A stretch of 64,000 bases of DNA from Protula sp. h YS-2021 (lineage: Eukaryota; Annelida; Polychaeta; Sabellida; Serpulidae), in the NCBI GenBank assembly GCA_949752745.1, contig OX457025.1:95793804-95857803 (forward strand), given 5' to 3'. The position numbers were made by a program, and so were the translations under genes. Each line of letters begins with the position of its first letter. Within the stretch, counting starts at the first letter, position 1. This document shows, piece by piece, positions 2,230 to 52,531 of this stretch. The notes beneath the pieces were generated by a model that saw only the letters and a list, made by a program, of their open reading frames with translations, was not told the DNA's origin and made no database searches.

Positions 2230-3168
2230 TCACCGAAGGGACTGCTGGAGTTTACTGACTTTAGCATAGAAAACCTGAAGATGGGGTTGGAGGGCTTCTG
2301 TCGTCCGTCGCTCTCTTTCTAACAGTCTGGCGGACGATACGGGGGCTGGCGTGATCACAGATCGTCTCTGGCGCATGATGCGCAAGTCGCGCCTTAACTG
2401 TGTGATTGCACACTGATGTCTACTTGGGGGTGCTGTGTGGGTTTTGAGGGTGTCCGCCCCGCCTACCCGGCTTTGATATGCTGGTTTGTTCACAGGCTTC
2501 TGTGTTTTGCTTAAGTCACTGACGGCATCGAGTTTTATTGCATTCCCAGGTTGTGGCCGTGAATGAGAAAATTCACTAGAATCGTCCGTGACGTCACTGG
2601 CTGCGTCATCAGCGACGCTCTCGGAACCTGTATTCGTAGAAGGAGCAGGACTAATGACCTCATGTCGTTTGCCCGTGTCGTATCCTGTCTGTATGATAAC
2701 CGACGTATGCGGGCGCCTTGGAGCTTGTTTCAAGTCACACGGTCCATCATTTTGCTTGTTTTGAGTGGCTTCCGTGTTGTGTTTTATATGTGACGTAAGC
2801 ATCCTTGCACACATGACGTCAATGGAATGTTTCCGCCTCTCGACATCGCGCGAGAATCGCGCACTGCGCGCGCGCATTAACTGCACTTCCTTCTCGCGGA
2901 TTTTACCATGATGAGTTTGCTGCAACCCTAAATGATCCACAGCGCGATTTAATTTCGATTTTTCCGTGCGATTTTTCTTCCAGGCGTAGCGCTCGATGTC
3001 ACTCCAGAAGAAAGCTGGAGGGGGCAACTTCCGGGCTTCCATATCCATGAAGTATTTGGATGAGCGTGCTTTTGTTGACGACTGGCGCTCGACACTTTCT
3101 ACACATTTTCTTTCTAGAGTTGCCACGTCGATAATATTACGCCGTTCACTTATGTCCACCACTAACAT
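2230..3168 (-). CDS. Intronless orphan gene, basic Ser/Thr-rich 312-residue protein
   Basis: An uninterrupted frame runs from ATG at 3166-3168 (A at -3, a favourable context) to TGA at 2230-2232. The locus is clearly more GC-rich than its AT-rich surroundings, as expected of a real exon. The N-terminal third is charged and probably helical (ERRNIIDVATLERKCVESVE, WKKNRTEKSKLNRAVDHL). Residues about 130-250 are low-complexity and rich in Ser, Thr, Asp and Pro, so probably disordered. The C-terminal 60 residues are again basic and helical, ending KVSKLQQSLR. There is no signal peptide or membrane segment, and I recognise no domain. It may be a lineage-restricted gene, or the single large coding exon of a gene with an upstream non-coding exon. 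The plus-strand frames at 2563 and 2996 are shadows. Confidence 0.7.
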   Translation of the reverse strand: MLVVDISERRNIIDVATLERKCVESVERQSSTKARSSKYFMDMEARKLPPPAFFWSDIERYAWKKNRTEKSKLNRAVDHLGLQQTHHGKIREKEVQLMRARSARFSRDVERRKHSIDVMCARMLTSHIKHNTEATQNKQNDGPCDLKQAPRRPHTSVIIQTGYDTGKRHEVISPAPSTNTGSESVADDAASDVTDDSSEFSHSRPQPGNAIKLDAVSDLSKTQKPVNKPAYQSRVGGADTLKTHTAPPSRHQCAITQLRRDLRIMRQRRSVITPAPVSSARLLERERRTTEALQPHLQVFYAKVSKLQQSLR

Positions 3169-5118
3169 CGTGTTTTCCAGTTACTCCGGCCAATACTTTG
3201 GTAAATGATCCAAAATTCCACTTTTTCGTCGCCGCGAATGTAAGATCAGCTTCTAAAAAGAAACGATGAGACAAAATCCGTTTCTTTTATTTTTTATTTA
3301 TTTTGTTATTATTATTATTTATTTATATTTTGCTAGATGATTTCGTAATGCAGTCCAATACACAATATTTTTTAAAATACCATTTGCTTTCAAGGCATAA
3401 TTTAAATATTTTCCCACTATATGTTTAAATTTTTTAAAAATATGGAAATCTGAGATATTTTTTTTCTTATGCGAGAAGTCAGTCAAAACCAAAAAAAGCA
3501 CCGGAAACTGCGGGAAAATTACTGGGGTCAACCCAGACCTTCCGCATCTGAGAACAATGAAACAAACTTCTTGCCCCCACCCTTCTTCTACTTTAACATC
3601 TCCGATAAGCTCCGTACAGTATCCCAAAAATTTTATATCCAGATTCTCCTCTGTATCAACTTACCCTTGTGTCAAACCTCGCACTAACACTGACGCCTAA
3701 ATTGAAACATACTTAGTAGCCAATCATTGGATCCAAAAAACAACCAAACCTTTACTGAATATATTGAGTTAGATGTTCGGCTCTGTGCACTTTCCCGGGC
3801 ACATTCCATGCCTTTTGACATGTTCACACAAGCAATAGCCTCACTGCGTGTGATCTCACAGAGGGGGGTCATTTCATCGCAACAGCAGCTCAAGAGCTTT
3901 GTTGTTTTTATGTACAATTATTAAGTACAAGTGGATTGTTGGAAATAGTCAAGTCTTCACATGTGTTTGTGCGCGCATCAAATTTCAAAAATTTAATATT
4001 TTCCAAAGCCAGCGGATTTATCTCTTGCTGGTAACTATTTCTAATACGCACACAAATAAACAAACAAAAATAAACTAGGCCTTTTGATCCACACTGGCTG
4101 CAGGTAATATCGCCGCATGACTCGGCACATGACGTAATAACGTCAAGAAATTCACCAAAATTTCTATTCTAGCATAACATTATTCCATAAATTATTTTAA
4201 ATTCTTTCATTATTTCATACACAACAATATGATAACAATAATAAGTATATTCACTATTAAATTATTTTATTCGCCTAGTGGCTTATTTTTATATCCCGCA
4301 AAATATATTTGTCATAACTTCTGTAGCACCATTAAAATCTATTATCAAAATGAAATCATGCGGGATAATAGTCTTGTAATCCACGATTGTAATGCCGAAA
4401 GAAGAATGTGAAGGGACTGATAAGTAAGATAATAATCTCATTATCATATGTTTGCGAAGTGATGTCACGATGTCACGTCTTAACTCTACTCTCTACCTCC
4501 TCTCAGATAATAAGTTTATCACTGTTTTTTTCTTTCTGAATTATTATATCATGTTATATATTGATTAATCCGCGAATTATTATATATTAAATGCAATTAT
4601 TTCACTGTTACTTTATCACGATTTGAATTAATCTACAAAACGAATTTTAAATGTAGTTTTAAACACGAGATATAGAAGTTCATTTCTAATTACTTGCTGA
4701 TATGTACAATTAAAAAAAAAAAGAACATTGGCTTTGTTTAAGGTTTATCCAAAGTAGAAATACTGGCATTACGAGGGCTATTGTCAATATATCTGTATCC
4801 GCAGTATGTCCATGGTTTGCAGCAATTAACGTTCTCACTGGTGTATTGATTTTACCCTTATATAAATAATGAAATGGCCTTTAACGGAAAGACAATGAAA
4901 TCACTAAGCCTTTGCTCTTCACACGCAAATTAAAAAAATAAGAAGATGCAAAAATCCTATAGCATGTATCTCAATATTTTCAGGAGCAAGAGGAGTTGGG
5001 GTCGAGTTGAGGGGGAGCGGAGGGGGCTAGGGGTGGCTTGGTTCAGATTCAGGTATCATGGAAATCGTTTGGCAAACAGGTTGATGAGAAAATGTGGTTA
5101 TTTCTTTTCTCCAAAACA
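3169..5118. other. AT-rich non-coding spacer
   Basis: No coding signal, RNA gene or recognisable element. It contains long A/T-rich stretches (3270-3460, 4140-4720) and short open frames without coding character. Confidence 0.5.
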
Positions 5119-7563: not shown

Positions 7564-8752
7564 TCACTCAATAGTAAAATTGAAACAGACAACTGGGCCC
7601 TCATCATCCCGGAAGTTGATTTTGTTCCACCTCTCTTCCATTTCTCTGATGACGTCAACGTAGCTGTCAATCACTTGCGTATTAAAGCCCCTGGATTTAT
7701 AATAATCTTTCAACTTAGCGCAGACGCCATTGAGTTGCTTCTGTACGTCGCGGATGTCGAACATATCGGCACCCGGTGCGTACACCCCGGAAGATGACGG
7801 AAACTCCCGAGCTAGTGACGACGCCAGTGCTTTCATTCGACCCCATGCGTCATCCCATTGAAAAGTGAAATCATCCAATAGGCTTTCATAATGCTCCAAG
7901 TTAGTGATGATTGGCTGTGAGTACTGCGTGAGTGCATCAAAGTACTCTTCAGTGGTGATAGTACACGACAAAGTATCCACATCAGTCTGGATCCTCACTG
8001 CTCCGGATGCCAATGCCTCCTTGGCTTCTACTCTATTTAACTTCGTCATGTAATCACAGCTTGTTTCTAAAGCTCGAACAGCCATGATTCGATTGTCATG
8101 TTTTGCAATTTCAGCTAAATCTTTTTCTAGATTAAATTTTGGCTTTTTGGGAAGGTCTTCATACGGTATTGTTTGTTGGACCATTCTCGGGCTGTAAGAC
8201 CTATCATCGAAATCTATCTGGATGTGTAATATATCCATGTCTTTCAGTAATTTCCGGTGCTTTTTGGGTAGGATCAGCGAGGTGGAGATATGCCTAGAAT
8301 TATCCTCACATACGTCATACAGATAGAAATGTACTTCCGTTTCGCAGTCGGAGAAATCTTGACCCTGCACGGCTTGTTGAAAATCACACACAGTCATACA
8401 CGTGTCAAACTTGGTCCCATTTAAGGCCAATATCTTACCCTTAACCCTATGCGCAAATGTCGCATAGCGCAAAAATACCGCTTTAAAAATATTCAATTCT
8501 AAATTGGTGGTGGAGTCAAGAAAACTAAAAGCATCGCTGCTAAATGCCTGGCCTATGTCATAGATTAGCTTAGGCATAAACCCTCCCGTGCCTAGGGTTG
8601 ATATCCGTATGGTGTAGCCTTCGGGGTAGTGGTTTTCCTCCATCAGTTCGTGAGTACGACGCCGTATTTCGCTGGATAAATCCTCCGCGTTTGTGATCCC
8701 CTCGTTCGCCATGCCATCGGTAAACATGATAATGTTATCGTCAAAAGCAGGT
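7564..8752 (-). CDS. VWA gene, last exon
   Basis: Acceptor TGTTTCAG, then one base and 396 codons including the stop. It begins PAFDDNIIMFTDGMANEG, the last VWA strand, and continues through about 370 further residues. The C-terminal 108 residues are the paralogue of 1-327. No AATAAA was found close downstream. Confidence 0.92.
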
Positions 8753-11700
8753 CTGAAACAAATTAAAATTGCAACTCCAAGCCGAGCTCAAAACAGAGTA
8801 GTCATTCTCACGGCATTATAATTATTAGTTAAAAATAACATACAATTAGAATAGTGACATACGCTTAGCATAGTGACATCCTTTTGTTGGTTTTGTAAGA
8901 ACGATGCGTTGGCTGGTTGCACTGAATGTTAATATAAATTACTAGCTTCAGTTACGCACAGTTCTTTGTGAGGGTGGGGAGGGGGAAGGGGTTAGGGTTG
9001 GAGGATAGGGGAGGGAATGCCGTTTCACAGATTGAGTAGCAAAGCCGTTTTATTTCTTAAAACGGTTTCGAACTGGCGAAAAATAACTTAGAAAGGTTTT
9101 TGAATCTGAAAAATAAAACATTGGCTTTTCTACAAAGGAAAAGCAAACGAAAATCAGACTGAAAAGTTTAAAAATTCTACTCAGAAAGAGAAAGTGACGT
9201 AAAAATATTATTTTTTGACCAAGTGTTCAGTATTTCGCATTTGAGAAATAGGTCCTAGTTTCATTACGAGGTTCATAATTTTACTCATCATATTAATCTT
9301 ATACTGCACATGCAACATCTGCAACTTAGGGTGTTAAACCTTTTAAGATAATTCAAATGCTGGAAAATTTAACAGTTTCGGAGTGGGGATGTCACTTAGT
9401 GTCCTCGGTTTTACAACAGCAGATGACACAAATTGTAAATATAAATAGGGATCAGCGTTGAAGTGGGTAAGCAGGGTCGGGGAAGGGGGGAGGTGGTGAG
9501 GGTGGATGAGGAGTCAGGGTGTACGCTAATGCTATAGCTGACCGGTAATGTAACAGCATTGCTTACGTCCCGTCGCAAGGGGCGGGGGGGGGGGGAGGCG
9601 TGGGGAAAGAGGTGGCGAGGGTAGATGAGGAGCCAGGGTTACTCTAATGCTGTAGCCAACTGGTGACGTAACAACATTGCTTGCTGCGTGACGCAGGGGG
9701 TGGGGGTGGGGGCGTGAGGAAGGAGGTGGCGAGGGTGGATGAGGAGCCAGGGTGTACGCTAATGCTATAGCCAACCGATGACGTCACAGCATTGCTTACT
9801 GTCTCTGGGAGCGAGGGGGGTGGGGAAGGAGGTCACGAGAGTGGATTCAGCGTGTACGTTAATGCTACAGTCAACCGGTGACGTCACAGCATGTAGGAGG
9901 GTGGAGGAGTGCATTGCGAAGGGGGTGGCGAGAGTGGACACTGAGTCAGTGGTGTGCGTACGCTAATGCTATAGTCAACCAGTGACGTAACAATATTGCC
10001 TACGGCGTGGGGCTGGGGGATGGTCTGTAAGTTGTGCGCACATCACGGATGAACCTTAAGACAGCACCACTTACGCTTTCTTTCGGATGCCGATCTGGAT
10101 GTGGATGAACTGATCCTGGGCGAGCAGCAGACCGGCCGACATGTTCGTCACGCCACCGATTTCTATCGCTCTTATGCTCTCTATTGTTTCTTCCTATCGA
10201 AGAAAGAGGCGACCTGATTTATTCGACTGCTGGAAATCTCTAAAAAAATCGTTGCATATTAAGTCCTTGTTTCGGTAAAAATGTTTTCTAGTTGATGCTC
10301 TTTATTAACCAGTGAAGGACTTATCAAATGTTTCTCTTGTTAAATGTAGGAAGCGGCAACATTGGTATAGAAAGTTGCGTCACATTTACCTCGTGTTGGT
10401 CAGTGAATTTACGAAGCGGTACCACGGGTAGATTAGAAGAGCGCGGAAGGGACACCATATTTACCATGTGCTTATCGTTTAGTTTACGAAGCGTTGTCGT
10501 CATTTTTGACTTGTGTAATTCAGTTTTACATAGGGATTATTGACGTTTGCGCGGGAGTGACGTCATATTTACCCAATGCTGGCCAGTAAGTTTGCCATAT
10601 TTACCATTTGCTTATCGTTTAGTTTACGAAGCGTTGTCGTCACGCTTAACTTGTATAAGTCCGTTTTACATAGGGATTATTGATGTTTGCTTGCCAGTAA
10701 GTTTATGTGGCTGGCTGAAAGGCCTGGCGTTGAAATGACGTCGTGTTTACCTTGTGCTAGTTAGTTTATGTAGAGGGTCAATGAGCTTGGTGCGGAAGTG
10801 ACATCATATTTAGCTTGTGGTGGTTGGTGAGTTTACGCAGCGGACCAATGAGACTGATGCGGAAGTGACGTCATATTTACATCATGCTGGTCGGTTAGTT
10901 TACGTAGCGAGCTGATAGGTTTGGTGTAGAAGTGACGTCATATTTACCTTATGTTGGTCGGTGAGTTTACGTAGCGGGCTGATGAGCTTGGCGGTCGTTC
11001 CAAACGTCACGATACCGAGCGTGTCTTCCTCTTTCAGCTGCCTAACGAGCAGAGTGGCGAAGATCTTCACTCTCTCTAACTTTGAGAAGTCACCTGCATG
11101 ACGTCATGGCATATATGCTAAGGGACCAACCGTAGAATAAATTTTCAAAATTTGTTGAACTCCTATCCCCCCCCCTCCATCCCCGCCTCCCCCAAAACCT
11201 CCTTCGCTTCTCCATTATACGCAAAAAATTATGATTGTTATCCACCCTGTAACCCTTGCTTTCTCAAAACCCACAACCGCCAGCACCCCCACCTCCACCC
11301 ACCCCCCCCCCCTTCGTAGGTACAAAGCTTACAAATTCATTCCAAGGCAGACGCAGCGGTATACCGAGTGAATTCAGTTTTTTTCAGCGCCTTTTAAAAA
11401 AAATAAATATTTTTTCATCCTTGATTGTGTCCACATGTCCATATTAAACAGCTACTATGTATGTTCTTTTATTTATGCAATTATTCTGGACAGCCAAGCG
11501 ATTTTTATAGCTTTACATTTAGAATTAAGTGGAATTTTGGTACTTAATCCATTTTTTTCGTTGTTTCACTTTCACTTAGCAGTTCTTAAAGTTAAAATCA
11601 GTATCAGCAACGAGTTAAGAAAATCACTGATTTACGCGTTAAGAGAATGGTGTACCTTCAGCCTCACAGAACGGCTCATTGATGTAACAATAATTCATGT

Positions 11701-14641
11701 ACCTTCAGCCTCGCAGAACGGCTCATTGATGTAACAATAATTCATGTACTTTCAGCCTCGCAGACCGGTTCATTGATGTAACAATAATTCATGTACCTTC
11801 AGCCTCGCAGACCGGTTCATTGATGTAACAATAATTCATGTACCTTCAGCCTCGCAGTCCGGCTCATTGATGTAACAATAATTCATGTAGATTCAGCCTC
11901 GCAGAACGGCTCATTGATGTAAGAATAATTCATGTACCTTCAGCCTCGCAGTCCGGCTCATTGATGTAACAATAATTCATGTAGATTCAGCCTCGCAGAA
12001 CGGTTCATTGATGTAACAATAATTCATGTACCTTCAGCCTCGCAGAACGGTTCATTGATGTAACAATAATTCATGTACCTTCAGCCTCGAAGAACGGCTC
12101 ATTGATGTAACAATAATTCATGTACCTTCAGCCTCGCAGAACGGCTCATTGATGTAACAATAATTCATGTACCTTCAGCCTCGCAGAACGGCTCATTGAT
12201 GTAACAATAATTCATGCACCTTCAGCCTCGCAGAACGGCTCATTGATGTAACAATAATTCATGTACCTTCAGCCTCGCAGAACTTCTCATTGATGTAACA
12301 ATAATTCATGTACCTTCAGCCTCGCAGAACGGCTCATTGATGTAACAATAATTCATGCACCTTCAGCCTCGCAGAACGGCTCATTGATGTAACAATAATT
12401 CATGCACCTTCAGCCTCGCAGAACGGTTCATTGATGTAACAATAATTCATGTACCTTCAGCCTCGCAGAACTTCTCATTGATGTAACAATAATTCATGTA
12501 CCTTCAGCCTCGCAGAACGGCTCATTGATGTAACAATAATTCATGCACCTTCAGCCTCGCAGAACGGCTCATTGATGTAACAATAATTCATGTACCTTCA
12601 GCCTCGCAGAACGGCTCATTGATGTAACAATAATTCATGCACCTTCAGCCTCGCAGAACGGTTCATTGATGTAACAATAATTCATGTACCTTCAGCCTCG
12701 CAGAACGGTTCATTGATGTAACAATAATTCATGTACCTTCAGCCTCGCAGAACGGCTCATTGATGTAACAATAATTCATGTACCTTCAGCCTCGCAGAAC
12801 GGCTCATTGATGTAACAATAATTCATGTACCTTCAGCCTCGCAGAACGGTTCATTGATGTAACAATAATTCATGTACCTTCAGCCTCGCAGAACGGCTCA
12901 TTGCTGTAACAATAATTCATGTACCTTCAGCCTCGCAGAACGGCTCCGACATACTGTGGCTGATATCCAGCACGAGCATGATCCTGACTGGGGCCTTGTT
13001 TACGCGTCCTGACGTCATAATGGGCACGCCATAGCGGTTCATGAGCGGAGGCAGAGGGCGTATCTCCCACCAAAATTGGATCTAAATCAACCCAAATATG
13101 CACAGGTGCTTAATTATACAAAAAATAAATGTCTTTTTTATGTTTTATAGAGGATCGCCTACAGACGTTGCGAAACGTCCATACAAGGTCACATTCAAAC
13201 ACATAATGTAGCTTCTAATACACTGCGATGGCAAGTGTGACTTTTTCATCAATTTCTAAATTCCTATTGTTTTGATTCCCTAGTTCGAATTTTACAATTG
13301 ACATTAATTCATCCGCTTAAAAGTTTTTATTTGGTGAAAAAGAAAACATTGAAGACATTTCAGTGTTTTTTTTTGTGTTTTTTGCTTTTTTTTTTTTTTT
13401 TTTCATCTCAAGTATTTTGTACGTATAAGATTATGCGAGAAGCTATGCGAGCGCCATCTTTTGTATCAAAACAATATAGAGTTCCAGTATGAAAATTATA
13501 AAAAAGAAAAAAGTGAAAAATTTTCGGAATAATTACAAAAGGGAAAAGGGAAATGTGGCAAAAGACATTCATGGCATAGGGCAAACCCTGCCCTACACAT
13601 CCACCCTGCAGTGCTGTACTCACGTATTTGCCGCGTTTGCGCATATATTCTTCACCGCTGCATTCGCTTAGTCAGCACGGTTTGCACACACACTCTGCAC
13701 CGCTATACTCACATAATCGCTGCGGTATGCACACACATTTTGCATCGTGGTACCCACGTTATGGCCTCGGTTTGTAGACACACCTTGACACGTTGTACTC
13801 ACGCAATCTCTGCGTTTTGCACACACACTCTACCCCGCTGTACTGACGTAATCGCTGCGGTTTGCACAGACACTTTGCACCGCTGTACTGAGGTAATCGC
13901 TGCGGTTTGCACACACGCTTTGAACCGCTGTACTCTCGTATTCACCGTGATTTGCACACACACACTTTGAAACCCTGTATTCACATACTTGTCACGGTTT
14001 GCAACGTTGTACTCACATAATTGTTTCGGTTTGTACAAACACTCTCTAACGCTGTACTCACGTAATCGCCCTGGTTTGCACACACACCTTGGACCGCTGT
14101 ACCCACGTAATCGCCGCGTTTTGCACACACACTCTATCCCGCTGTACTCACGTAATCGCCGCGGTTCGCACACACATAGTTGATTTCAAGCAGCTTGTCC
14201 TCCTCTTCTGCATTATCGCCTTTCTCCTTGTCTGTTCAAATAAAATGGTTTTTGTGCAAAAAACACAACACAGAAAACGGGATAAAACGTATGCTTCTGT
14301 TGTTACACATTTTAACCAGCAATGGCGTTATGTTTCATGTATGTCGCCATCACCAAATTTCGAAGCTTAAGCCACTTCAACACCAGAATTAAGTGGCACT
14401 TTGTTATATGTTCATTGATTTTATATATTTAGCTTCAAGCTTTACACTTGATAAAAAATCGAGCCCTGTAAACAAAAGGTGTACTTCTGTAAACAAAAAG
14501 GCGCACTTCTGTAAACAAAAAGGCGTACTTCTGTAAACAAAAAGGCATCACCTGTGACATCCAGATCTTTGATGGCGCTGACTAGGGATACGACCCCGCC
14601 TTCCTTCTCTGAAGTAGTGCCCACCGCTACCATAACGCACC
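7564..14641 (-). CDS. VWA-domain protein, six coding exons in view (5' end not found)
   Basis: Six exons join with matching phases: 14552-14641, 14152-14231, 12925-13081, 10948-11093, 10075-10193 and 7564-8752. They give 592 residues and a TGA at 7564-7566. The first exon begins with a splice acceptor, so the N-terminus lies upstream and was not found. A VWA domain spans exons 3 to 6. It shows the MIDAS motif DISHS in VLDISHSMSEPF (classic DxSxS), the metal-binding Thr in GGVTNMSAGL, and the strand with Asp in IIMFTDGMANEG. VWA domains bind Mg2+ and protein ligands. No signal peptide or membrane segment is visible in this part, so a cytosolic protein related in layout to WAV3-type VWA proteins is possible, but the family assignment is my inference. 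The last exon carries about 300 residues conserved with the paralogue at 1-327. The introns hold junction-derived tandem arrays, described separately. Confidence 0.9.
8753..9479 (-). other. VWA last intron, unique part
   Basis: The acceptor-proximal part of the last intron. It is AT-rich with a GGGGAGGG-type stretch near 8970-9020, and no further exon is seen. Confidence 0.6.
9480..10020 (-). repeat. About 100-120-bp degenerate tandem array in VWA last intron
   Basis: Five units share GTGTACGCTAATGCTATAG, then CGGTGACGTCACAGCATTGC (variants), then a G-rich tail. Spacing falls from about 123 to 100 bp toward the exon. On the minus strand each unit holds CGTAAGCAATGCTGT, which matches the real donor and intron start (CGTAAGTGGTGCTGT) at 12 of 15 positions. 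The array may therefore derive from the exon-intron junction at 10075; this is weaker than for the other arrays. Confidence 0.75.
10075..10193 (-). CDS. VWA gene, fifth visible exon
   Basis: Acceptor TTCGATAG, 119 bases, donor AAAGC^GTAAGT at phase 2. It encodes EETIESIRAIEIGGVTNMSA then GLLLAQDQFIHIQIGIRKK, including the conserved Gly-Gly-x-Thr-Asn loop of VWA domains. Confidence 0.85.
10365..10990 (-). repeat. 67-bp tandem array copying the exon/donor junction at 10948
   Basis: About 8 degenerate units, spaced exactly 67 bp in the three nearest the exon (TGACGTCATATTTA at 10933, 10866 and 10799). Read on the minus strand, a unit holds about 45 bases matching the exon end (GCTACGTAAACT, GACCAACAT) followed by the donor and intron start GTAAATATGACGTCA. 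The block 10452-10546 is duplicated at 10590-10684. The exon-proximal copy is the functional junction. Confidence 0.88.
10948..11093 (-). CDS. VWA gene, fourth visible exon
   Basis: Acceptor CATGCAG, 146 bases, donor CATAAG^GTAAAT at phase 0. It encodes DFSKLERVKIFATLLVRQLK, EEDTLGIVTFGTTAKLI and SPLRKLTDQHK, the amphipathic helix and central beta strand that follow MIDAS in VWA folds. Confidence 0.88.
11094..11651 (-). other. VWA intron, unique part
   Basis: Acceptor-proximal intron between the fourth visible exon and the 47-bp array. It holds C-rich stretches at 11165-11320 and otherwise AT-rich sequence. No exon is seen. Confidence 0.6.
11652..12946 (-). repeat. 47-bp tandem array, about 27 copies, copying the exon/donor junction at 12925
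   Basis: Near-identical 47-bp units. On the minus strand each is 22 bases of exon end (TTCTGCGAGGCTGAAG preceded by GAGCCG), then the donor GTACAT and 25 intronic bases. The exon-proximal unit merges into the real exon. A two-base variant (AACTTCTC) recurs at 12281 and 12469, 188 bp apart, so blocks of four units have been duplicated. Two units (near 11887 and 11981) have lost the GT of the donor. Confidence 0.97.
12925..13081 (-). CDS. VWA gene, third visible exon (MIDAS)
   Basis: It starts at ATTTAG^ATCC (an alternative acceptor 18 bases further in keeps the frame) and ends at CTGAAG^GTACAT, phase 1. It encodes RPLPPLMNRYGVPIMTSG and then VRIMLVLDISHSMSEPFCE, which holds the DxSxS metal site. 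A TAG immediately upstream limits how far it can extend. Confidence 0.88.
13082..13605 (-). other. VWA intron, unique part
   Basis: Intron sequence between the 45-bp array and the acceptor of the MIDAS exon. It holds a T run near 13386-13403 and no exon. Confidence 0.6.
13606..14185 (-). repeat. 45-bp tandem array copying the exon/donor junction at 14152
   Basis: About 12-13 units. The four nearest the exon are spaced exactly 45 bp (14151, 14106, 14061, 14016) and distant ones are more diverged. On the minus strand each unit reads GTGTGTGCAAACC, GGCGATTAC, GTGAGTACAGCG: the end of the second visible exon plus its donor. Because 45 is a multiple of three, long meaningless frames are open across it on both strands. 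Confidence 0.93.
14152..14231 (-). CDS. VWA gene, second visible exon
   Basis: Acceptor TTTGAACAG; 80 bases encoding KEKGDNAEEEDKLLEINYVC then ANRGDY; strong donor TAC^GTGAGT. It enters at phase 1 and leaves at phase 0, matching both neighbours. The last 20 or so bases plus the donor are the template of the 45-bp array that follows. Confidence 0.8.
14464..14555 (-). repeat. 22-bp tandem array adjoining the donor at 14552
   Basis: Four units plus the junction itself, spaced 21-22 bp (CTGTAAAC at 14466, 14487, 14509, 14531). On the minus strand a unit is ACAG, then AAGTACGCC, then TTTTTGTTT. The junction reads ACAG^GTGATGCCTTTTTGTTT, so the array runs directly off the splice donor. Confidence 0.85.
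14552..14641 (-). CDS. VWA gene, first visible exon
   Basis: The acceptor TTGTTTCAG precedes 2 + 29 codons + 1 base, and the donor is ACAG^GTGATG. The peptide reads CVMVAVGTTSEKEGG...IKDLDVT. Phase 1 at its end fits the next exon, which begins with two bases completing Asp. The possible ATG inside it is not taken as a start, because a good acceptor precedes the exon. Confidence 0.75.
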
Positions 14642-14790
14642 CTGAAACAAGCAGGGATTGCTTCACAAAGCACTCTTACATATTCACATTTGCATATTTA
14701 ACGGCTAAGAAATATTTGTGAAACTACGGCCTCAGTAAGGCAGGATCCCTCGTGAAGGAGTAAAAGTAAGATGAGGTCAAGTCACACTGC

Positions 14791-15196
14791 AAGGTTTCAG
14801 GTTCCTACGACAATCCCTTCCATGAGAAGTGGGCCGGACAAAACATCGTCTCACGGCTAAGTTCAAGCCCAAAATTCACCATATTTGACAGTTTCCCACG
14901 ACGTCAATATTTGGCCGATTGTGACACTAATGCTACACTGCACATCTTCAATATATATATATTCACCATGTAAGGTTTCAGGTTCCTACAACAATTGCTT
15001 CTATGAAAAGTCGGCCGAAAAAAAAAACATCGCGTCAGGGCTAAGTTGAAGCCAAAAATTTCACCATTTTTGTGCTTTTTGTACTTTTTGTGGACAGACA
15101 GACGGACGAACAGACGGACGGAGGGACAAACGGACGGTTAGATGGACGGATGGACGGACAGCTCATAACAATATCCCTCCGTTTCACGGGGGATAA
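14791..15196. repeat. Dispersed repeat with duplicated half and GACGGACG tail
   Basis: Two related half-units (14791-14895 and 14971-15075) share AGGTTTCAGGTTCCTAC, GGCCG and GGCTAAGTT. A GACGGACG-rich stretch follows, ending in a small hairpin TATCCCTCCG/CGGGGGATA (15169-15196). From general knowledge this kind of tail is common in bivalve genomes. Confidence 0.65.
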
Positions 15197-15644
15197 TCAC
15201 AAATTGATATTTTGGTACAAGATTTATTGCATTATATCATTCATAAAAACTGTAGCTTTAACAGTGTTTATTTCATTCAAAGGACAACTTTTAAAAATTT
15301 TAACACTCACCGCGTGACAATCCACACTTATAAAGGAATCATGAGTATATTCTCCGTTATCTAACCGCTTACGAAGCGTCGCTCGTCGCATTCACCCGAA
15401 TGTTATAGGTATAAGCCAACGTGACACTGACAGAGGCGTTGTCACGAAACCCCTTTCGCTTTGTGTAATGAAAGGTGCCAAGTGGCATCCAGGCGAGGCC
15501 TCAAAACAGGCGTGTCTGAGAGGTACGAATACTTTAGTTCTGCTGGTTCTGGCTATCAAGGGCATGAGTCTATGTGTTTTTGTGTTATAATAGCGATAGA
15601 CCATTGCGTTGGGGCGCTATGTATTTCATTGTGGAAGGTCAATG
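15197..15644. other. Spacer without a supported gene
   Basis: Contains a minus-strand frame at 15392-15604 with acceptor- and donor-like ends, whose phase does not fit the first visible VWA exon. No firm feature. Confidence 0.4.
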
Positions 15645-16315
15645 ACTTGATCGCTGCGCGGCTCGTTCACAGGCCTTCCACGCGTGTCCGAATCCACCAC
15701 AAAGCACTCAGCCCCATGATCTGCGAGGGTCGTTCACTGGCATTCCACGCGTGTCCGAATCCACTACAAAGTACCCAGCCCCATGATCTGCGTGGGTCGT
15801 TCACTGGCATTCCACGCGTGTCCGAATCCACTACAAAGCACCCAGCCCCATGATCTGCGAGGATCGTTCACTGGCATTCCACGCGTGTCCGAATCCACTA
15901 CAAAGCACCCAGCCCCACGATCTGCGAGGGTCATTAACTGGCATTCCACGCGTGTCCGAATCCACTACAAAGCACCCAGCTCCACGATCTGCGCGGTTCA
16001 TTCACAGACAATCCCCGTGGATCCGACTCCAATACAAAGCACCCAGCCCCATGATCTGCGCGGTTCATTCACAGACCTTACCTGTATGTCCGAACCCAAT
16101 ACAAAGCACCCAGCCCCATGATCTGCGTGGGTCGTTCACAGGCCTTACCCGTGTGTCCGACTCCAATACAAAGCACTCATCCCCATGACCTGCGAGGGTC
16201 ATTAACTGGCATTCCACGCGTGTCCGAATCCACTACAAAGCACCCAGCCCCACGATCTGCGCGTGTCTATCACAGGCCTTCCCCATTTGTCCGACTCCAA
16301 TACAAGAGCCTACAA
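15645..16315. repeat. 67-bp tandem array, about 10 copies
   Basis: Units hold CCACGCGTGTCCGAATCCAC, then AAAGCACCCAGCCCC, then GATCTGCG. Early units are spaced exactly 67 bp (15678, 15745, 15812). It is unrelated in sequence to the other 67-bp array. Open frames over it are repeat artefacts. By analogy with the VWA introns it might start at an exon near 16300, but I could not establish one. Confidence 0.92.
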
Positions 16316-17629
16316 CCCAATTGCCTAACAAGTAATGGTTCTGAGATTGGAGTGCCTCAGGAACACGAATCATAACTGGGACAATAGCTTTCCCCTGATT
16401 TTCCAGACAAGAAGGGAAACTGTACTTATGAAAAGCGTTTCCTGCAAAATATTTATCGAAATTTCGCATTCAATTTCCGGTATTCTCCGGACTTTCTCGA
16501 AACGTATTTATATTGATATATCTGTTTCATTTTTCATTGCTAAAATCTGCTACTACTGTAGGTCTTTATAAGTGAAAAGTGACACTTTATACAGGGCGGA
16601 TAACTGACGGGTCTTTGTAAAATGAAGCCGGTTTGTGTTAACGACTACTTAATGATTGTAGAAACAGAATGTAAGTGGTATTATGACAGCTCTATTGGTC
16701 ATAACTGTTATTTCCCAGAAGTGAATTGAAGAACTGATATTTTCCAACTTACACTATAATCTTTGTTTCTATCTTAAATGTATAGAACATCTTTTGTTTC
16801 TTTACACCGGTCTGACATTTCAGGTCCTTTAATATTGCTTGGTATTTTTTATTCTGCTTTTTATTTACTGAACTACGGAGTTGCAAAATTCAAAACACAT
16901 ATAAAGAAAGGGCAACTGATTATTCCTGTGCCACTACATCAATATTTAACTACTTTTTAACAGAAAGAATTCTAAAAGTTTTATAATACTTGTTTTACTC
17001 ATTTAGTTAATGAACCTCCTTTATTCTGCATTTCATTCATTATCACCACAATACCAAAGACCTTCATGTCTAAGGCCCTTATACCAAATACCATTTTTGT
17101 GCAGGGCTGTTAAATTCGTTATTTTGTCTATCAGTTGCATGGCAACACAAGCTTTCACAGACAAGTATTTGCTTAATATCATCACCAATCAGTTTGTTTA
17201 CATTGCATTTGAGCTGTGATTAGATTGGCAAAATACAGTGCATTAAACACACAAGAGATAGTTGTACTGATTGTTTAATGTATTACACTAAACCTAGAAA
17301 ATATAACTACAATGATATGATTTGAATGATATTGCACTGAAACGACTCCAAATAGACAAATAAATGAATGGAAACAATCAGGTGAAGATTTTTTTGTCTG
17401 AACACTACCACATATGTTGTAATTACGCTCTTAACACTGGCAAAGTGGATTTATTGTCCTCAATTTCAAATAGTTTTCCTCTTTTTCTGAAAGCCAGTGT
17501 TTTTAAATACTAGGGTCTGCGTTTTAATTAAACTTGGGGCCACAAAAATTACGATTCTTAATCCTTAAAAGCCATCTTAAATGTCATGCTCAGTTGCCAC
17601 ATGTATCAAAACTTCTACATAACAAGAGC
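16316..17629. other. AT-rich non-coding sequence
   Basis: No gene supported. A minus-strand frame through 16316-16440 (containing IVPVMIRVPEALQSQ) is open, but no donor gives the required phase. Confidence 0.4.
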
Positions 17630-25065: not shown

Positions 25066-25979
25066 CCCGGTAGCTGTGCCCATTCGTGGGTTTGTCCTAT
25101 CCCGAGCAAATGTATTTAAAAACACGAAGCATTTCATTAATTAGCGCTGTTAAAACCAAATAAATAGTTATTTATCTATTTTTTAAATTATTAACATATA
25201 AAATTTTACGACCACCCGGGAAATAGGACCACTTTGCAATAGCCACTTTCTACTTCGCCGCCATCATGAAGATCCCCACAACCATTCCGGGAACCCGATC
25301 ACTTTAATTCATTCCCGATTGTGCAAAATCAATCACTATGATTGTTACTTTGATCCATCTCCTATCAACCAAGGCATGCAGTCACAAGCAGAAATGTGCT
25401 TTCAAGAGTTTCCGAGAAAATTTTATATAATTGATCTGTCTCGCTTTTTCCGCCGCGGTGTTAACAGTCATGTACCGTAGATAAACGCCTACTGCGTCAT
25501 AAATAGATATATTAATGCATAAAAAATGTTCGTTAGTGGTATACGTTCCTGATTTTTCTTTTTTAATTTTAATTAGACGATATTAAGTTTTATATGAGAA
25601 TTTTCTCGATAAAATAAGAAAAAATAAGGCCCTTTCAAAGAACCATGACTAAGATATCAGTTGTGAACTGATGCCAGTACTCATTGAATCTATCTTTCCC
25701 GAAGCTGTGAAAGAGACGTAGAAAAAAGGCAACCTTTGTAAAACAACGAACGACTGGTGCCTCAGTCTGTCCGGCTTTGACACGGTTTGGCGGGACATTT
25801 TGTCTTTCTTGTTATTGTGATTTAATTAAGTGGGTAGCAAAACAAGTATCAAGACAAGTACCAAAACAAGTACCAAGACCAATTACTTTCGTCCTAACAT
25901 GGTAAAACTTCACCTAGACTAACTGTGTCGCGTTGCAATTGTATTAGACTAAACAGCTTTCAGTTGTTGAAAATCAGTT
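25066..25979. other. Non-coding spacer
   Basis: No gene or element recognised. Short direct repeats ACAAGTACCAA occur near 25850-25880. Confidence 0.5.
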
Positions 25980-25983
25980 TTAA

Positions 25984-26541
25984 AAACTAGAAGCTCATTC
26001 CGCAAGTTTCATGGTCGTAGGGCCCATAGTGTCAGAGAAGAAGAAGACACAAAAAATCGGAAAAACTGTCAAGAAGAAAAAAAAGGACGAATTTGCTCGC
26101 ACAAATTCATATAACCCTTCTTCTCTGGCACTATGGGCCCTACGACCACGAAACTTGGGACTTATGAAGAACTTGATCTGAACATGTGCACGTCACTTTT
26201 TATTTTCGTCTTTGATTTCGTTTACTTTGTTAAAACGCCATGTGAAAAGAGTGTATTTTTTGCAAGTAAATGCGTAGCATTTAACGACAGCACAGAACAG
26301 ACATTAACTCAGTGAGCTTTGTGCGAGCTCTCGCTACGTAAATAGACAACAAGGCGCATGCCTGATCAGTCAATAAAACTTTAAGTCAACAACAACCAAA
26401 CACTACTCGGCTTATAAGACTTATTCAAGCTGTGTTGTTTGCAATATATTGTTCAAGAAATAACCCATTGAAGGAAGTATTTTTGCGTTTTAAATTTTGT
26501 CAAGTGTTTAACATTTCGCCAGCGGAATGAGCTTCTAGTTT
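25984..26541. mobile_element. Small inverted-repeat element with nested hairpin
   Basis: AAACTAGAAGCTCATTCCGC at about 25984-26003 is exactly reverse-complemented near 26522-26541. Inside, arms of about 40 bases (26003-26044 and 26118-26157, both with GTCGTAGGGCCCATAGTG) form a second inverted repeat around a 73-base loop. No coding capacity; MITE-like. Confidence 0.7.
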
Positions 26542-26755
26542 GTAGAATTCAATTTCCCAATACATTCAATTTCCCAACAACAACCAAACACTACTCGGCT
26601 TATAAGACTTATTCAAGCTGTGTTGTTTGCAATATATTGTTCAAGAAATAAGCCATTGAAGGAAGTATTTTTGCGTTTTAAATTTTGTCAAGTGTTTAAC
26701 ATTTCGCCAGCGGAATGAGCTTCTAGTTTGTAGAATTCAATTTCCCAATACATGA
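26388..26755. repeat. 188-bp tandem duplication
   Basis: The segment starting AACAACAACCAAACAC at 26388 is repeated at 26576 with almost no change (AATAACCC versus AATAAGCC). The near identity implies a recent event. It duplicates the right end of the inverted-repeat element. Confidence 0.92.
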
Positions 26756-28911: not shown

Positions 28912-30899
28912 CTGTATATTCTGGAGATTACAATTCCGCCATCGCTCCCCCGTCAAACTGACATCCAGTTTTCTCATCAGTGATCAGTGAAGTCAAGAAT
29001 ATTTAGGCCATCAGCATTTGGGAGCAAGTTAACAGCTGTGATATTGACGAGGTGTATAGTTATGAACATCGTGGGCCGGGGGAGGATGGGGGGGGGGGCA
29101 ATTGGTATCAAAGCGTATTGTCATGCATTTACGAACAATGCGAAGGGGGGGTGGGGGAGAGATTTCCATTCAGTATTGCGTTTTGTTAAGATAATAAGTA
29201 TCATTTCAAACTTCGACCTCCGCCTTTATTGGTCGCTTTCAAGTTGCGGATAATCGTGGTAACCAGTTGGTACCTGGCCCCAACCCCTCTCCCCCCTCCC
29301 CCCCCCCCCCCGGATAACGGACACGCATGGCAACCGTTTGATTCGTGAGTGCCCGTCGATTTGAGGTAGCGGCCTCGATCCGACCAAAACATAACATTAA
29401 CTTTGGTTGTACTTTGGTTGTTATTTTCACGACCACAAATCAACGTTTCACTAAGATCTTTAACACAAAGCTGAGCAGATGTTAGTTAAGCAAATGTTGT
29501 TCAGAAGTTGGTTTTGGTCGCAACGAGAACGCAGCTTTCTCCGAGGTTTAATCAACGTCTTTGGTGCAACGTTGAAAACACGTTGGAAAATCGACGTTGG
29601 AGAGACATAAGAAATCGACCCCCCGGTGTTTCCGCCCACTGGAAATGATAGTCAAGACAGGTCACCTTGAATAGACTTATAAGAGAATATGAAATATGAG
29701 GATTTTAAGTATGCACGAAAAAAAAGATTCCACTGAGTGTTCAAGGAGTGGAATGATGACAAGAGAAAATATTTTCTTCTGTCTTTAGGTACATTGATCA
29801 AGTGCTCCCACCCACCATGCAACAACAACAGTGTCGTTAATCGATAGGACAGGTCGATGTGAGGCATCAAGCGAGGGGAGGGGGAGCAGGGGTGATAATG
29901 CTTTTTTCCTTGCAACAACAACTTGGTTTGCATTATTTTACCATTATTATCACTATTATTATTACGAATAAAAAGAAAACAAATAATAATAATAATAATG
30001 ATAATAATACAAATTAACTTTCTATTAACCCCTCTCACTATATAGTGAAATGGTGACCACTCATCGCGAAAACGAAAGTGATCCATTGAAATAGCTGTAT
30101 TGTGTAATCGAGAGTGTGCATGCTGATTGACTGAGGCTGATCGATATAGGTGATTGAGTGGACACCACTAGCAAAATACGCGGTATAGATAGAATGAAAT
30201 CACGACACGCCAGGCTGTGAAATTATAAAGTAAATACATAAATAAATTAGCAATAAATAAACAGTGGTGTGACTAAATCGTTATTTGCTAAAATGATGTC
30301 GCATCATTTTTTTTTGGAAGAAAAAAAATTTGTTTGTAGTTTTTTAAGCACAGGTCAACGCCGGAAAATGACCGGGGGTTGTTTATGACTTTCACTTCAC
30401 GAACAACAAAAAGAAAAAAAAAGAAAAGAAAAGAAAAAAAAAGAAAAAAGGGAGGCCAGAAAATTGTGCATATACTTCTTTAGTTTTGTGTGCTTGTTGT
30501 TTTCGTTCTATAATTGCAGTAACGTGCGTTATAGCCGCCCCTGTACTCATAAATATATAATTTGGTGAAAAGAGTATGTTATTAAATTAAATTTGATGCT
30601 CCATAATTACGGGGTGAAATTTACAAAGGTGTGCTCGTTTGATTAAAAGGGTTTTTTTTTAAAATTGAACACTCCGAAAGGGGTCATTTTAATAAGGCAT
30701 GGACGTGGTAACCGATTTGTGACCGAGTACCCCCCCCCCCCCCATCCCCGGGACACCAAGTGGCCACTCACGATTTCATATTGGCCTGTGACGTTGTTTG
30801 CGTGATAAGAAGCAGACGCAGTTGTAAATTTGATTAGTTTTCACTGGAATTCAACTACATTTGTCGACCGAAAAGAAAAGAAAAAATAGAGAAGTTACG
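28912..30899. other. Spacer with G/C runs and fragments of dispersed repeats
   Basis: Holds G runs near 29085 and 29147, a C run near 29296-29310, and single copies of the GGTAACCAGTTGGTAC repeat (29255-29340, and a degenerate one at 30700-30770). It also holds an ACGTTG-rich repeat (29465-29610), an ATT/AAT triplet run (29940-30010) and an A-rich AAAGAAAAG stretch (30405-30450). The end includes the unassigned promoter/5'UTR of the gene that follows. Confidence 0.55.
29465..29610. repeat. ACGTTG-rich dispersed repeat, copy 3
   Basis: GTTGGTTTTGGTCGCAACG, then ATCAACGTCTTTGGTGCAAC, then CACGTTGGAAAATCGACGTT. It shares words with 7080-7420, where the order is reversed in places. Confidence 0.5.
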
Positions 30900-31103: not shown

Positions 31104-32533
31104 GTTGGTCCTTAAGCTAATTCGACTCAGTATGTTTTTTTTTAATTTTATTTGGCTGGAATTGTTCGGCATAATCTCTGACCTAACCATTCCAACGTTC
31201 TCTAAAGTTGAGACTTTCGAAGTTGAAAAGCAAACTGTTTATTTGTATGAAATTGCTCTTGATTTTGTTAAAATCGAAAGAGCAATAATTTTGGTAAAAT
31301 TCAATTGGAATTGTTGTGATTTTTTTTCCTGGACCACCGGGTGCTCCGGCACACAACCATCTGGATTTGTTCCTGATTTTTCTCTGCGACCACCATGTGC
31401 CAAGGGGCACAACAAGCTGCTGATTTTTTTCTCAATAACCCAATGCTTCGGGATAAAGCTACCTGGATCCATAAACGGCTAAAGTGAATTTGAAAAAAGC
31501 ACACATTTCAAACAAGCAGACAAGATATTGATGCCTTTGTCAGTTTAATGCAATTAAAAGATTTTATTTATCGTTTTCTTCATTATCTCATTAAATTATT
31601 ACATCAAAAGACTGCTACTACCGCACTAACATACTCACCTTAGGCCGAGAAGAAAAACAGTCTTGTTTCTCATCCTGTTTTTATTTATTTATTTATTTTT
31701 TTTTTTTGAAAAATTTAAACCTGACCTGGGCATCATCTTTTGTTCTTGAAAATTTAAATGCCCCAGCGTTGGCCTAAATTCTTGTTTGTTAATATAACTT
31801 TGTATACTGGTCTGGCCAATCAAAGCAGTGAAAAATATTATTGTCATTTTAAGACATATTTCCTGGGTTTCTGACGGTCTTTCTCTAAGCTACAAAAATA
31901 ATTTATCGTGTGCTTTTACAGTTTTTGACTGCTGTCTATATTTGCAAAATTTCCGGCCGCTACTCCAACCCCATCCCTCCCTCCCCCTACTAATGCAGGA
32001 CAAATCTCGGTTGATGTCTTTTTTCTGTGATTCTCACAATCTCTTAGGGCTTTTTATATATATTTTTATAATGGTGCACATTTTTTAGATTTCAGTGTGT
32101 TCATTCTTGGTAGGAAGTGTTTTTGTTTGGGTTTCCAAACTGGCGTAACATTGTTGTTCCGGTCTCAAGTAGCGATCATTGTCTAAATAATTTCATTTTC
32201 ATTGCACTCCATGATTTTACAACATGAGATCCAAAAGCGGTCAAGAAATATTCTCATTTACAGAAACGTGCTCTCGGAGCACTGGGTGTCTCCTCAATTA
32301 ACTTCAAGTTCGCCAGAGAGCTTAGCAGTCTGTGGTAACGCCGTCCCTGGACAGTCTTGTTTTCTCAAATCCGATGCCAGTTGACCTTGCTTCAGAAAGA
32401 GAAACAAAATCAACTTTCCCTGGCTTAATGAGTAAACAAGTAAACTTCTGTTTTTAATCACTGTTTTTTTATTAAATGTAATATCTGGGTGTTTTTGTTT
32501 TTCTTTCCTAAGTTTTTTTTCTAAATATTTCAG
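31104..32533 (+). other. Intron of the ParB-like gene
   Basis: 1430 bases, GTTGGT...TATTTCAG, with T-rich sequence before the acceptor. It holds a short imperfect repeat of GGTGCTCCGGCACAC / ATGTGCCAAGGGGCAC character near 31335-31415. Unlike the VWA introns it has no tandem array at its donor. Confidence 0.75.
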
Positions 32534-34340: not shown

Positions 34341-36654
34341 TTTTCAATCACTGTTGGATGTCAAAGGTGATGAAGATCCAAGATGGCCGCTTGGTATCTT
34401 ATGTGCTACCATGCGTGTCCAAAAAAACGCAGAGAAGGGGGTATCTTATTAGCTAATATAGTTTAAAATGGTTATTTTTCATTATGTAGTCATCGTTTCA
34501 AACGAAAAGGGGAAGTATTTCGGAATTTTACTCCCGTTTGGTTAAAAAGGGGGTATTATTTCAAAATTAGCATTCCGTGTTAGGGGCTGTTTTAAAAAGT
34601 CATGGAGACTCCTGATAGCCAGTTGGTTCGAGTGTGCCCCCTGGGCATGGATACGCATGGTAACCAGTTGGTACGTGAGTGGCCCCCCTGGACATGGACA
34701 GGCATGGTAACCAATTGGTTCGAGAGTGCCCCCCTGGGCATGGATACGCATGGTAACTAGTTGGCATGTGAGTGGCCCCCGGGGGCATGGACACCCATGG
34801 TAACCAGTTGGTACGTGAGTGGCCCCCCTGGGGCATGGACATGCATGGTAACCAGTTAGTATATGAGTGCCCCCCACCTCATGGATACCCATGGTAAGAA
34901 GTTGGCACGCGGGTGGTCCGGTGGGATGAAGACAAAAACAAAAACCATGTGTGAAGCACGTATTTATTACACAATAAGAAGTTTGCCTTAACAAAGTTAA
35001 ATCACGGCCAGAAAACGTGTGATATCAGTTCCCCTTCTTTTTCACCAATGTCTATTTTGTTATTGTAAAGCGTTGTTATTACATCCTTAACTTGCTTCAA
35101 TATTAACAACCTATTTGAACGCTAAATAGCTTTTTACAGGGTCCGTACCACGCGAACCTGCACGCAAGAGCAGGATCTAAGAAAGGCTACATCCCTGCTG
35201 TACATTTCTACGAACCACTAAAATTATTGCCGTAAAGCCTTACCAAGCGTACGATTTTAGAACAGACTTTTACTCGCATTTGGAGCAAGAAGTTGTTTAA
35301 TTCTACACAATCCAAAGTCTTTTGAAGTCCATTTGTCACAATGTCACAAGATGTTATTTTTATGTTCTAATATATAGGACATAGCCAATGTTTGCTTCCC
35401 TGTCTACTTGAGGTCAAGTATTTTTAATTTATAGATGACAGGCTTTATTTCTAAAAGTTTATGATATGATAGTATTAATATGTAATCAGGATTAACCGTC
35501 CTTCACTTTTCTGACGCCGATTTTTTTTTATGTTAAAGGAACATTTGTTTCATTGCATTCAATGTTAGTGGCTAAAGTAAAAGATGCTATTGAAGCTGGT
35601 GTCAGCGAATTAATTATTCTGCTTTATGTAATACTTTTCCAATGTTAAGAAACCACAGTGCATTCACATGTCGAAAATACTCAATCCAGTAATTGATGAG
35701 TATTTCATCAATCATTTTTTTACGCGATTTACAAAATCATCCCCACCTACTTGAAATTGCGTGATTTTTTCCCGCAAGTTACTATGAAGATGTGTCCTAT
35801 GTCATCCGTAACGTGATCTGCAGTCCCGACTCTCAAACGCAAGTGTAATTATATAACTGAATAAGAATAATGTACAATTGAACATATTATGTTATACTAT
35901 GCTATAATATAACAATAACTGTATTTCAAGCAGCATCGGATCTTACAAACATCTTAAAATACAATGGCAATAGTGACCTCAAAGGCACAATGATGTTCAA
36001 GACAAACAATGCATAAATACAAGGATTTCACCTATACAAAATAAGAATCAATCTGCTGTCCATTTGGCAAGCATCAGCCTATAGATTCATTACCTGCAAG
36101 ACTATACTGGACTGGATTTCTCATAAAAGCACAAAACCGCCTAAAGGAAATGGAATCAAAGGCTGGGACATGAATGTACAGTTTCAAAGCAAATCCAACA
36201 AATCTGAAGATGCCATACTATTTACCAAATAAATTTGAAACCATGCATAGAGGCTAAGATTAATTTTAAAAGAGCAGACATGCCAAAACATTGACTATGA
36301 AGCGTAAAGCATATTATCCTTGATTTATAAGAGGAATGAACCAATTCCTTTTGGCATTACAGCATACGTCAAACACTAACAGAAAGGCCATACAATTGCC
36401 TTGTATAATTTATATGTTTAAGACAGTTTATAAATGAAGAAAAATTTTCGGATGACTCAGCAGTAGGCTCATTTAAGACGAGAGAATGGTACTTATTTAA
36501 AATTAAAAATGCACAATTAAATCGGCTTTAACAAAGGAGTTTTAGATCATTAATTTCAAATGGCTCTTCTTTCATTACCAGAACATGTCGAAAACTGGTC
36601 AATTAAGAATCTGTTATTGTGGTTTTAATCATTTTCAAATCACTGACTATTCAT
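34341..36654 (-). repeat. TLR unit A, 3' flank (segmental duplication)
   Basis: Aligns with 43625-48092 (unit B, apart from its insertion) and in part with 41570-42440 and 52140-52531. Shared landmarks are ATGAAGA-CCAAG, TTGGTATCTTATGTGCTA, GTGATATCAGTTCC and the A-rich end before the receptor's stop. It contains no gene besides the tandem array listed next. Confidence 0.8.
34615..34905. repeat. GGTAACCAGTTGGTACGTGA array, about 6 units
   Basis: Units of about 45-60 bases: CATGGTAACCAGTTGGTACG, then TGAGTGGCCCCCCTGG, then CATGGACA. The same array occurs with about 4 units at 43915-44110 in unit B, and as single degenerate units near 29255 and 30700. Confidence 0.88.
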
Positions 36655-39491: not shown

Positions 39492-39510
39492 CGTTCGTAG
39501 TCCGTTCTTG

Positions 39511-39520
39511 CCTTTTTATA
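39511..39520 (-). promoter_or_regulatory. TATA-like box upstream of TLR-A
   Basis: TATAAAAAGG on the minus strand, 29 bases before the ATG. It is conserved in unit B (50904-50914) and altered to TATATAAGG in unit C. If used, the 5'UTR would be extremely short, so the role is uncertain. Confidence 0.3.
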
Positions 39521-43624: not shown

Positions 43625-43914
43625 TAAATGCTTAGCATTTGTTCTTTAATCACTGTTTTATGTGAAAGGTGATGAAGACCCAAGGGGCCACTTGGTATCT
43701 TATGTGCTATCATGCGTGTCCCTAAATCGCCGATAAAGGGGTATTTTATAAGCTAATATCGTTTAAGATGGATATTTTTTATTAAGTACTTATCGTTTCT
43801 CACAAAAGGGGGATTATTTCGGAACTTCACTCCCGTTTGGTTAAAAAAGGGGTATTATTTCAAAATTAGCATTCCGTGTTAGGGGCTGTTTTAAAAAGCC
43901 ATGGAGACGCACGA

Positions 43915-44110
43915 TAACCAGTTGGTACGTGAGTGCACCCCCCGGGACATGGACACGCATGGTAACCAGTTGGTACCTGAGTGACCCCCTTGGAACATGG
44001 ACACGCATGGTAACTAGTTGGTAGGTGAGTGGTCCCCCCTCCCTGGGGCATGCACACTCATGGTAACCAGTTGGTACGTGAGTGCCCCTCCTCATGGACA
44101 CCTATGGCAA
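43915..44110. repeat. GGTAACCAGTTGGTACGTGA array, about 4 units
   Basis: Same unit as 34615-34905 but fewer copies, so copy number changed after the segmental duplication. Confidence 0.88.
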
Positions 44111-52131: not shown

Positions 52132-52531
52132 ATACAAACTAAAAAGCTAATGAATTTTCGTAGAGTATTCTAGATCAGGCATGACAACACATTTACCATG
52201 AAGCGAATCATACTTTCACTATGAGAATACCTTTGCTTGGACATTTGAATGTACACAAAAATAGAAAACGAAAATTCTAGGCCAATTGAATTGACAGAAC
52301 CCGTAAGCCGTTAAAATTATCAGACATAAAAACTGATAAGACTATGCTTTTAAAGAAAGTGGTGCTCATTGAATGTTAAAATTTTAAGAATTAAACAGGG
52401 CTTAACAAGCTAACATGTTCGAAATCAATAATTGCATATTATTCTTTTGTCATTATTAGAAAATATAGAAAACCCTTTACGTAATAATATATTCCTGTCA
52501 CTTTTACCATGCCAAGTCACTGACTCTTCAT
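52132..52531 (-). repeat. TLR unit C, 3' flank (short)
   Basis: Aligns with the last 0.4 kb of the 3' flanks of A and B (ATGCCAACACATT-like, ATGAAGCG). No gene. Confidence 0.6.

Follow-up and report, generated by a model that had tools for sequence, protein, structure and literature searches.

The VWA gene and its surroundings

The window, by which we mean the whole stretch of 64,000 nucleotides that was analysed, contains on its minus strand a gene with six coding exons and five introns. Its product matches the Pfam families VWA_2 (E = 1.3e-13) and VWA (E = 3.3e-12), that is, a von Willebrand A domain of an animal protein. A single open frame runs over all the joins of exon 1 (14641-14552), exon 2 (14231-14152), exon 3 (13081-12925), exon 4 (11093-10948), exon 5 (10193-10075) and exon 6 (8752-7564), with GT at every donor and AG at every acceptor. 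A preliminary description of this DNA had placed exon ends at 14552, 14152, 12925, 10948 and 10075. All of them are indeed followed by GT, and the frame stays open across the joins and through exon 6. An in-frame ATG at 14633 makes exon 1 a candidate for the first coding exon of the gene. Exon 3 contains DISHS, which we take to resemble the metal-site motif of VWA domains. Exon 6 carries the stop codon, and its phase-2 start agrees with the position inferred in seven homologue ORFs.

With 7997 candidates scored, an organism is named for only two of the 15 homologues of the VWA product: Paralvinella palmiformis, at 39% identity, and Capitella teleta, at 34%; no cephalochordate is named among the 15. 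Paralvinella and Capitella are annelids. No relative was confirmed in IMG/VR viral contigs or GTDB genomes, and Rfam gave no match at the gathering threshold. Elsewhere in the window, Toll-like receptor genes (LRR and/or TIR domains) lie on the minus strand at 36655-39515 and 48393-52903. Their frame is broken over several ORFs, which suggests pseudogenes or assembly indels. Furthermore, an ORF of 316 aa at 2233-3180 (minus strand) matches no Pfam family at E 0.01, and none of 633 candidates qualifies as a homologue at E 0.001.

Arrays spanning the donors of introns 2, 3 and 4

According to the preliminary description, each of the first five exons is followed by a tandem array. An array with approximately the reported period is present in all five introns, but it starts only at +6 from the donor in intron 1 and at +72 in intron 5. 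The extent of each array was defined by wrap-around alignment of the repeat unit to exon plus intron. Three of the five, all on the minus strand like the gene, cross the exon-intron boundary, and their units consist of exon end, GT and intron start, as had been proposed for the units of 45, 47 and 67 bp. The array of intron 2 (13596..14176; 45-bp unit, 12.9 copies, 81% identity) includes the donor and the last 25 nt of exon 2. That of intron 3 (11651..12946; 47-bp unit, 27.6 copies, 97.5% identity to the consensus) includes the donor and the last 22 nt of exon 3. In intron 4, the array (10372..10991; 67-bp unit) includes the donor and the last 44 nt of exon 4; it has a regular part of 4.5 copies, down to 10688, and degenerate copies onward to 10372. 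The reading frame confirms that the real junction is that of the unit nearest the exon.

In introns 2, 3 and 4, respectively, a copy located downstream matches the junction (-25..+20) at 87, 93 and 89%. Additional junction copies number at least 10 in intron 2, 27 in intron 3 (the last one partial) and 7 in intron 4; for the counts in introns 2, 4, 5 and 1, each intron was searched with its own junction. GT is present in 25 of the 27 copies of intron 3, and 18 of the 27 are identical to the real donor over -9..+6. Since identity to the consensus reaches 97.5% in intron 3 and only 81-82% in introns 2 and 4, age or turnover is not the same for all arrays, and the near-identity of the intron 3 copies suggests recent turnover in this intron. 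The arrays of the VWA gene hold many distinct point variants and are therefore unlikely to be an assembly artefact, although their copy number could be wrong.

Arrays of introns 1 and 5

The other two arrays do not span a junction. The array of intron 1 (14466..14546, minus strand) has a 22-bp unit in 3.7 copies. Its junction and the downstream copy match at 49% only, and a search with the junction recovers the intronic part alone. The earlier statement that this array fits well is thus not upheld. Its unit contains CCTTTTTGTTTACAG, which is acceptor-like (a pyrimidine tract plus CAG) and not donor-like. The array of intron 5 (9489..10003, minus strand; unit of about 114 bp, 4.5 copies) had been viewed as a weaker junction case. 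However, a search of this intron with its own junction found no junction copies, and the array has no junction homology. Hence, the reported recurrence at donor after donor holds for introns 2, 3 and 4 and was overstated for introns 1 and 5.

Acceptors, other donors and chance placement

No copy was found for any of the seven acceptors tested (best identity 0.38-0.49), namely six of the VWA gene, the one before exon 1 being presumed, and one of another gene. This agrees with the initial remark that no array sits at an acceptor. A small repeat in intron 5 (8838-8879; 19-bp unit, 2.2 copies) lies 86 bp before the acceptor of exon 6 and does not reach it. In the plus-strand intron 31104-32533, the exons of which were identified by eye, the donor lacks an array, as had also been reported: the self-match of this donor lies within 38-49%, like those of the donors of introns 1 and 5 and of all seven acceptors.

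Random positions reach 80% self-match in 2.0% of 4000 cases outside 8700-16400 and in 5.0% of 4000 cases over the whole window. With three of six donors self-matching, the probability is 1.5e-4 at the first rate and 2e-3 at the second. If the five arrays were placed uniformly in their own introns, the joint P would be 0.0015 and that of at least three spanning arrays 0.004, values that rise to 0.0037 and 0.009 when the longer version of the intron 4 array is used; 0.4-0.57 spanning arrays are expected and three are observed. The comparison of donors (3/6) with acceptors (0/7) gives a Fisher P of 0.07. These chance tests are post hoc and, since the locus was chosen for its odd look, they are suggestive and not decisive.

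The body of the VWA gene makes up 9.2% of the window and holds five of the 14 tallied minisatellites (P = 0.0065), a value that hinges, like the GC comparison below, on the choice of these 14, which were hand-picked from 75 TRF rows. Excluded rows comprise simple-sequence runs (including AC-rich, TA-rich and CT-rich ones) and short arrays with fewer than 4 copies, for instance 8838-8879, 15094-15137, 25834-25879, 31488-31522 and 40927-40966. A 188-bp pair and some other low-copy arrays were retained in the 14 despite their few copies. The pair, located at 26387-26753, consists of two copies with 99% identity and is a very recent tandem duplication. Another array, at 15654-16305 upstream of the VWA gene (67-bp unit, 9.7 copies), was considered as a donor array and rejected, no adjoining exon being recognised by eye. 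Its unit is private and unrelated to that of the intron 4 array despite the equal period.

Ordinary intronic minisatellites might have been placed by chance in a lucky cluster. The window is rich in minisatellites (the 14 tallied by hand cover 8.2% of it), the arrays occupy 25-76% of each VWA intron, and two arrays out of five do not span the donor. The placement tests (P = 0.0015-0.009) weigh against such a cluster, and the same arrangement has been reported independently from amphioxus, as far as the available texts describe it (PMC3087553, PMC3902484). We therefore consider chance placement highly improbable.

Strand composition, folding and possible donor targeting

Alternatively, 5' splice sites could themselves seed tandem duplications in this lineage through co-transcriptional R-loops, polymerase pausing or break repair. 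The spanning of the donor in three of five introns, the lack of copied acceptors, the placement probabilities and the enrichment of the gene body in hand-picked minisatellites all point in this direction. However, the case comes from a single gene and was built post hoc, and the difference between donors and acceptors only reaches P = 0.07. Moreover, coding-strand G/C skew is +0.26 in intron 2, +0.20 in intron 3, -0.27 in intron 4, -0.41 in intron 5 and 0 in intron 1. No G4 motif occurs on the coding strand, and the four matches on the template strand all lie in intron 5. Because the sign of the skew differs between arrays and coding-strand G4 motifs are absent, R-loops, which had been put forward as a cause, make a poor common one, and duplication driven by them is disfavoured. 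Duplication driven by hairpins is disfavoured as well: the DNA folds of the first two units, compared with shuffles, are inconsistent among introns 2-4, being worse in intron 2 (z = 2.09), equal in intron 3 (-0.13) and slightly better in intron 4 (-1.20). Overall, mutagenesis targeted to donors appears rather unlikely.

Base composition could also favour donor edges. GC content is 0.47 in the 14 tallied minisatellites and 0.37 outside them; it is 0.47 in the exons and 0.31-0.40 in the non-array parts of introns 2-5. Exceptions are the unit of intron 1 (0.36), the unit of intron 3 (0.43, for 0.40 in its intron) and two other arrays of the window (0.30 and 0.20). Since the first of these units is AT-rich, the second is barely above its intron and the two arrays are very AT-rich, GC accounts for at most part of the donor bias.

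Reading frame and retention of the copied donors

When introns 2, 3 and 4 are translated past the true donor, a stop follows after 15, 5 and 45 nt of intron, respectively, in each case before the next donor copy. Therefore, a working protein needs the exon-proximal donor. From the open frame across the joins and these stops, we predict that the authentic boundary alone is used and that splicing is undisturbed. In intron 1 the frame remains open for 107 nt, through the array, and in intron 5 it closes after 1 nt. Array copies were considered as coding repeats and rejected, the exon frame reaching these stops in introns 2, 3, 4 and 5. An ORF of 128 aa that crosses the intron 2 array was also rejected as coding, its frame being different from that of the exon.

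Selection might keep the arrays if extra donors aided splicing or regulated expression, and selection for donor copies had indeed been suggested as a cause. Many copies retain a full donor, as illustrated by the 18 of 27 in intron 3 that are identical to the real one, and the donor columns (-3..+6) vary slightly less than the rest in intron 2 (0.139 vs 0.196) and intron 4 (0.148 vs 0.182). In addition, the available text of one study links an intronic minisatellite of C. elegans to multiple splicing choices (PMC4039745). In intron 3, however, the same columns vary more than the rest (0.041 vs 0.021). GT is retained in 9 of 12 copies in intron 2 (70th percentile of dinucleotides), in 25 of 27 in intron 3 (28th) and in 2 of 3 in the regular part of intron 4 (61st), i.e. 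about as well as the average dinucleotide and below average in intron 3. Clearly better conservation of the copied donors is thus not supported, and neither is selection on them, given that the retention of GT is much like that of dinucleotides in general. Furthermore, splicing at a donor copy of intron 2, 3 or 4 instead of the true donor leads to an early stop. Maintenance of the arrays by selection is, in our view, quite improbable.

Origin of the arrays

The duplicated exonic stretch of exon 4 encodes KLISPLRKLTDQHK, which aligns with NVIFPLTRMSRDGK of the homologue P0001. Because this repeated stretch corresponds to normal coding sequence that aligns with homologues, the exon is the source of the exonic part of the intron 4 array. 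Within the window, each of the five units occurs in its own intron only, and their mutual matches are at most chance-level words. This bears out the opinion that the arrays are unrelated in sequence and that no single transposon spread. An insertion of a transposon or satellite family beside the donors deserves next to no credence: no other part of the window matches any of the five intron units, and the exonic part of the arrays of introns 2-4 is coding sequence of that same exon. A satellite-bearing transposon, which was sought through occurrences of the units at other loci, was rejected since the units are private within the window. In favour of such elements, another minisatellite of the window is dispersed. 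This 47-48 bp minisatellite (CATGG...) is found at 34407-34947 and 43900-44088, with a short match at 29257-29273; it is perhaps element-borne, and satellite-carrying elements may therefore exist here.

Introns could also have been born by tandem duplication of exonic segments containing AGGT. This is a known route of intron gain (PMC3443670, in its available text) and was proposed for the amphioxus arrays, according to the accessible part of PMC3087553. However, no copy resembling the acceptor was found within 15-150 bp, and the junction copies stop well short of the acceptors. Moreover, intron 5 appears to be old. Seven of the 11 C-terminal homologue ORFs (P0005-P0015) extend upstream of exon 6, and the four others begin downstream and are uninformative. 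All seven informative ORFs resemble read-through of an AG-ending acceptor, at the same phase-2 position as exon 6. Since acceptor position and phase are common to these seven, intron 5 looks older than its array, as far as can be judged from protein ends, this array being one that does not span the donor. Such a birth of the introns seems to us improbable.

We favour, with a probability of roughly 0.64, junction-spanning minisatellites of the kind called "mirages", which would result from tandem duplication across the junction, survivorship and then minisatellite turnover. At least three separate events, one per intron, would have duplicated in tandem a short stretch of exon end plus donor. 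The exon-proximal donor would have been kept and all the extra copies would lie inside the intron. The protein would be unharmed because the original donor stays and the extra copies fall within the intron. Later growth and partial homogenisation would be due to ordinary minisatellite turnover, by slippage or unequal exchange. Donor edges would perhaps be favoured for several reasons: (i) exons are GC-richer than introns, (ii) duplications within exons or at acceptors would be purged or (iii) splicing at one of the downstream copies would lead to a stop. By eye, no similarity of the flanks (microhomology) is visible at the ends of the arrays.

Simple tandem duplication combined with survivorship might suffice to account for the observations. 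Survivorship alone would nevertheless need help, given three spanning arrays where 0.4-0.57 are expected. Purging at acceptors would not be absolute, since mirages of amphioxus also occur at acceptors in the available text of PMC3087553. We infer the mechanism of duplication and turnover, as well as that splicing is correct in vivo and that the donor bias stems from survivorship.

Implications for splice-site choice

Provided that the gene is transcribed and that its splicing follows the reading frame, exon 3 is followed by 18 further donors that have the same sequence as its own over -9..+6 and can be told apart only by their position or by the exon context. The VWA locus would then be a ready-made test of splice-site choice. 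A wider possibility, which we judge unlikely, is that in a non-cephalochordate animal lineage some process linked to transcription or splicing systematically steers tandem duplication towards 5' splice sites. If true, introns opening with up to dozens of near-identical donors would make this genome a natural experiment on how the spliceosome chooses among equal donors.

Comparison with known systems

In a literature search that was thin on subscription papers, the available texts described boundary-spanning arrays from amphioxus and human only. The AGGT model of tandem genomic duplication (PMC3443670) shares with the VWA arrays the tandem duplication of segments containing splice sites. In the accessible text of that model, the new intron takes its acceptor from a copy, whereas no acceptor copy was found for the VWA arrays. 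Intron 5, which is not an intron with a junction array, also differs from a newly gained intron in looking older than the array it contains. A looser parallel is provided by internal tandem repeats at exon-intron boundaries in human segmental duplications, which are likewise minisatellite expansions at such boundaries (PMC2812944, available part). There, the repeats are tied to new introns and often kept in an alternative transcript (PMC2812944). By contrast, frame and stops predict that no copy of the VWA arrays is retained in the working mRNA.

The closest parallel is with the mirages of amphioxus, defined in the available texts as minisatellite-like tandem duplications of exon-intron boundaries (PMC3087553, PMC3902484). 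Those of globin genes have units of 150-160 bp; duplication can affect 5' as well as 3' boundaries, and splicing is apparently normal (PMC3087553). Those of Adh3, as cited in the same text, have units of 10-72 bp and show somatic instability. Another mirage is found in PGBD5, beside which Adh and troponin C (TnC) are cited (PMC3902484). On the strength of these accessible descriptions, mirages and VWA arrays share units of tens to about 160 bp over an exon-intron boundary, the keeping of the authentic boundary and extra copies, of which many bear splice signals. The arrays of introns 2-4 correspond to mirages both in unit length (45, 47 and 67 bp) and in spanning the boundary.

The VWA arrays differ from amphioxus mirages in affecting donors only (no copy at seven acceptors), in occupying three introns of one gene and in reaching up to 27 extra copies. 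They also differ in that the two organism-named homologues are annelid. The VWA arrays come from the sequence of one haplotype. Mirages in a lineage other than amphioxus are thus possible, if unproven, since both of these homologues are annelid. Donor-junction minisatellites may therefore occur outside amphioxus, where the cases in the texts available come from studies of individual genes. The more unusual aspects of the VWA arrays are that they recur in three introns of a single gene, that intron 3 holds so many copies and, possibly, that the phylum is a different one. The arrays of the VWA gene probably represent a new and striking example of a type already described, the mirage, rather than a new system.
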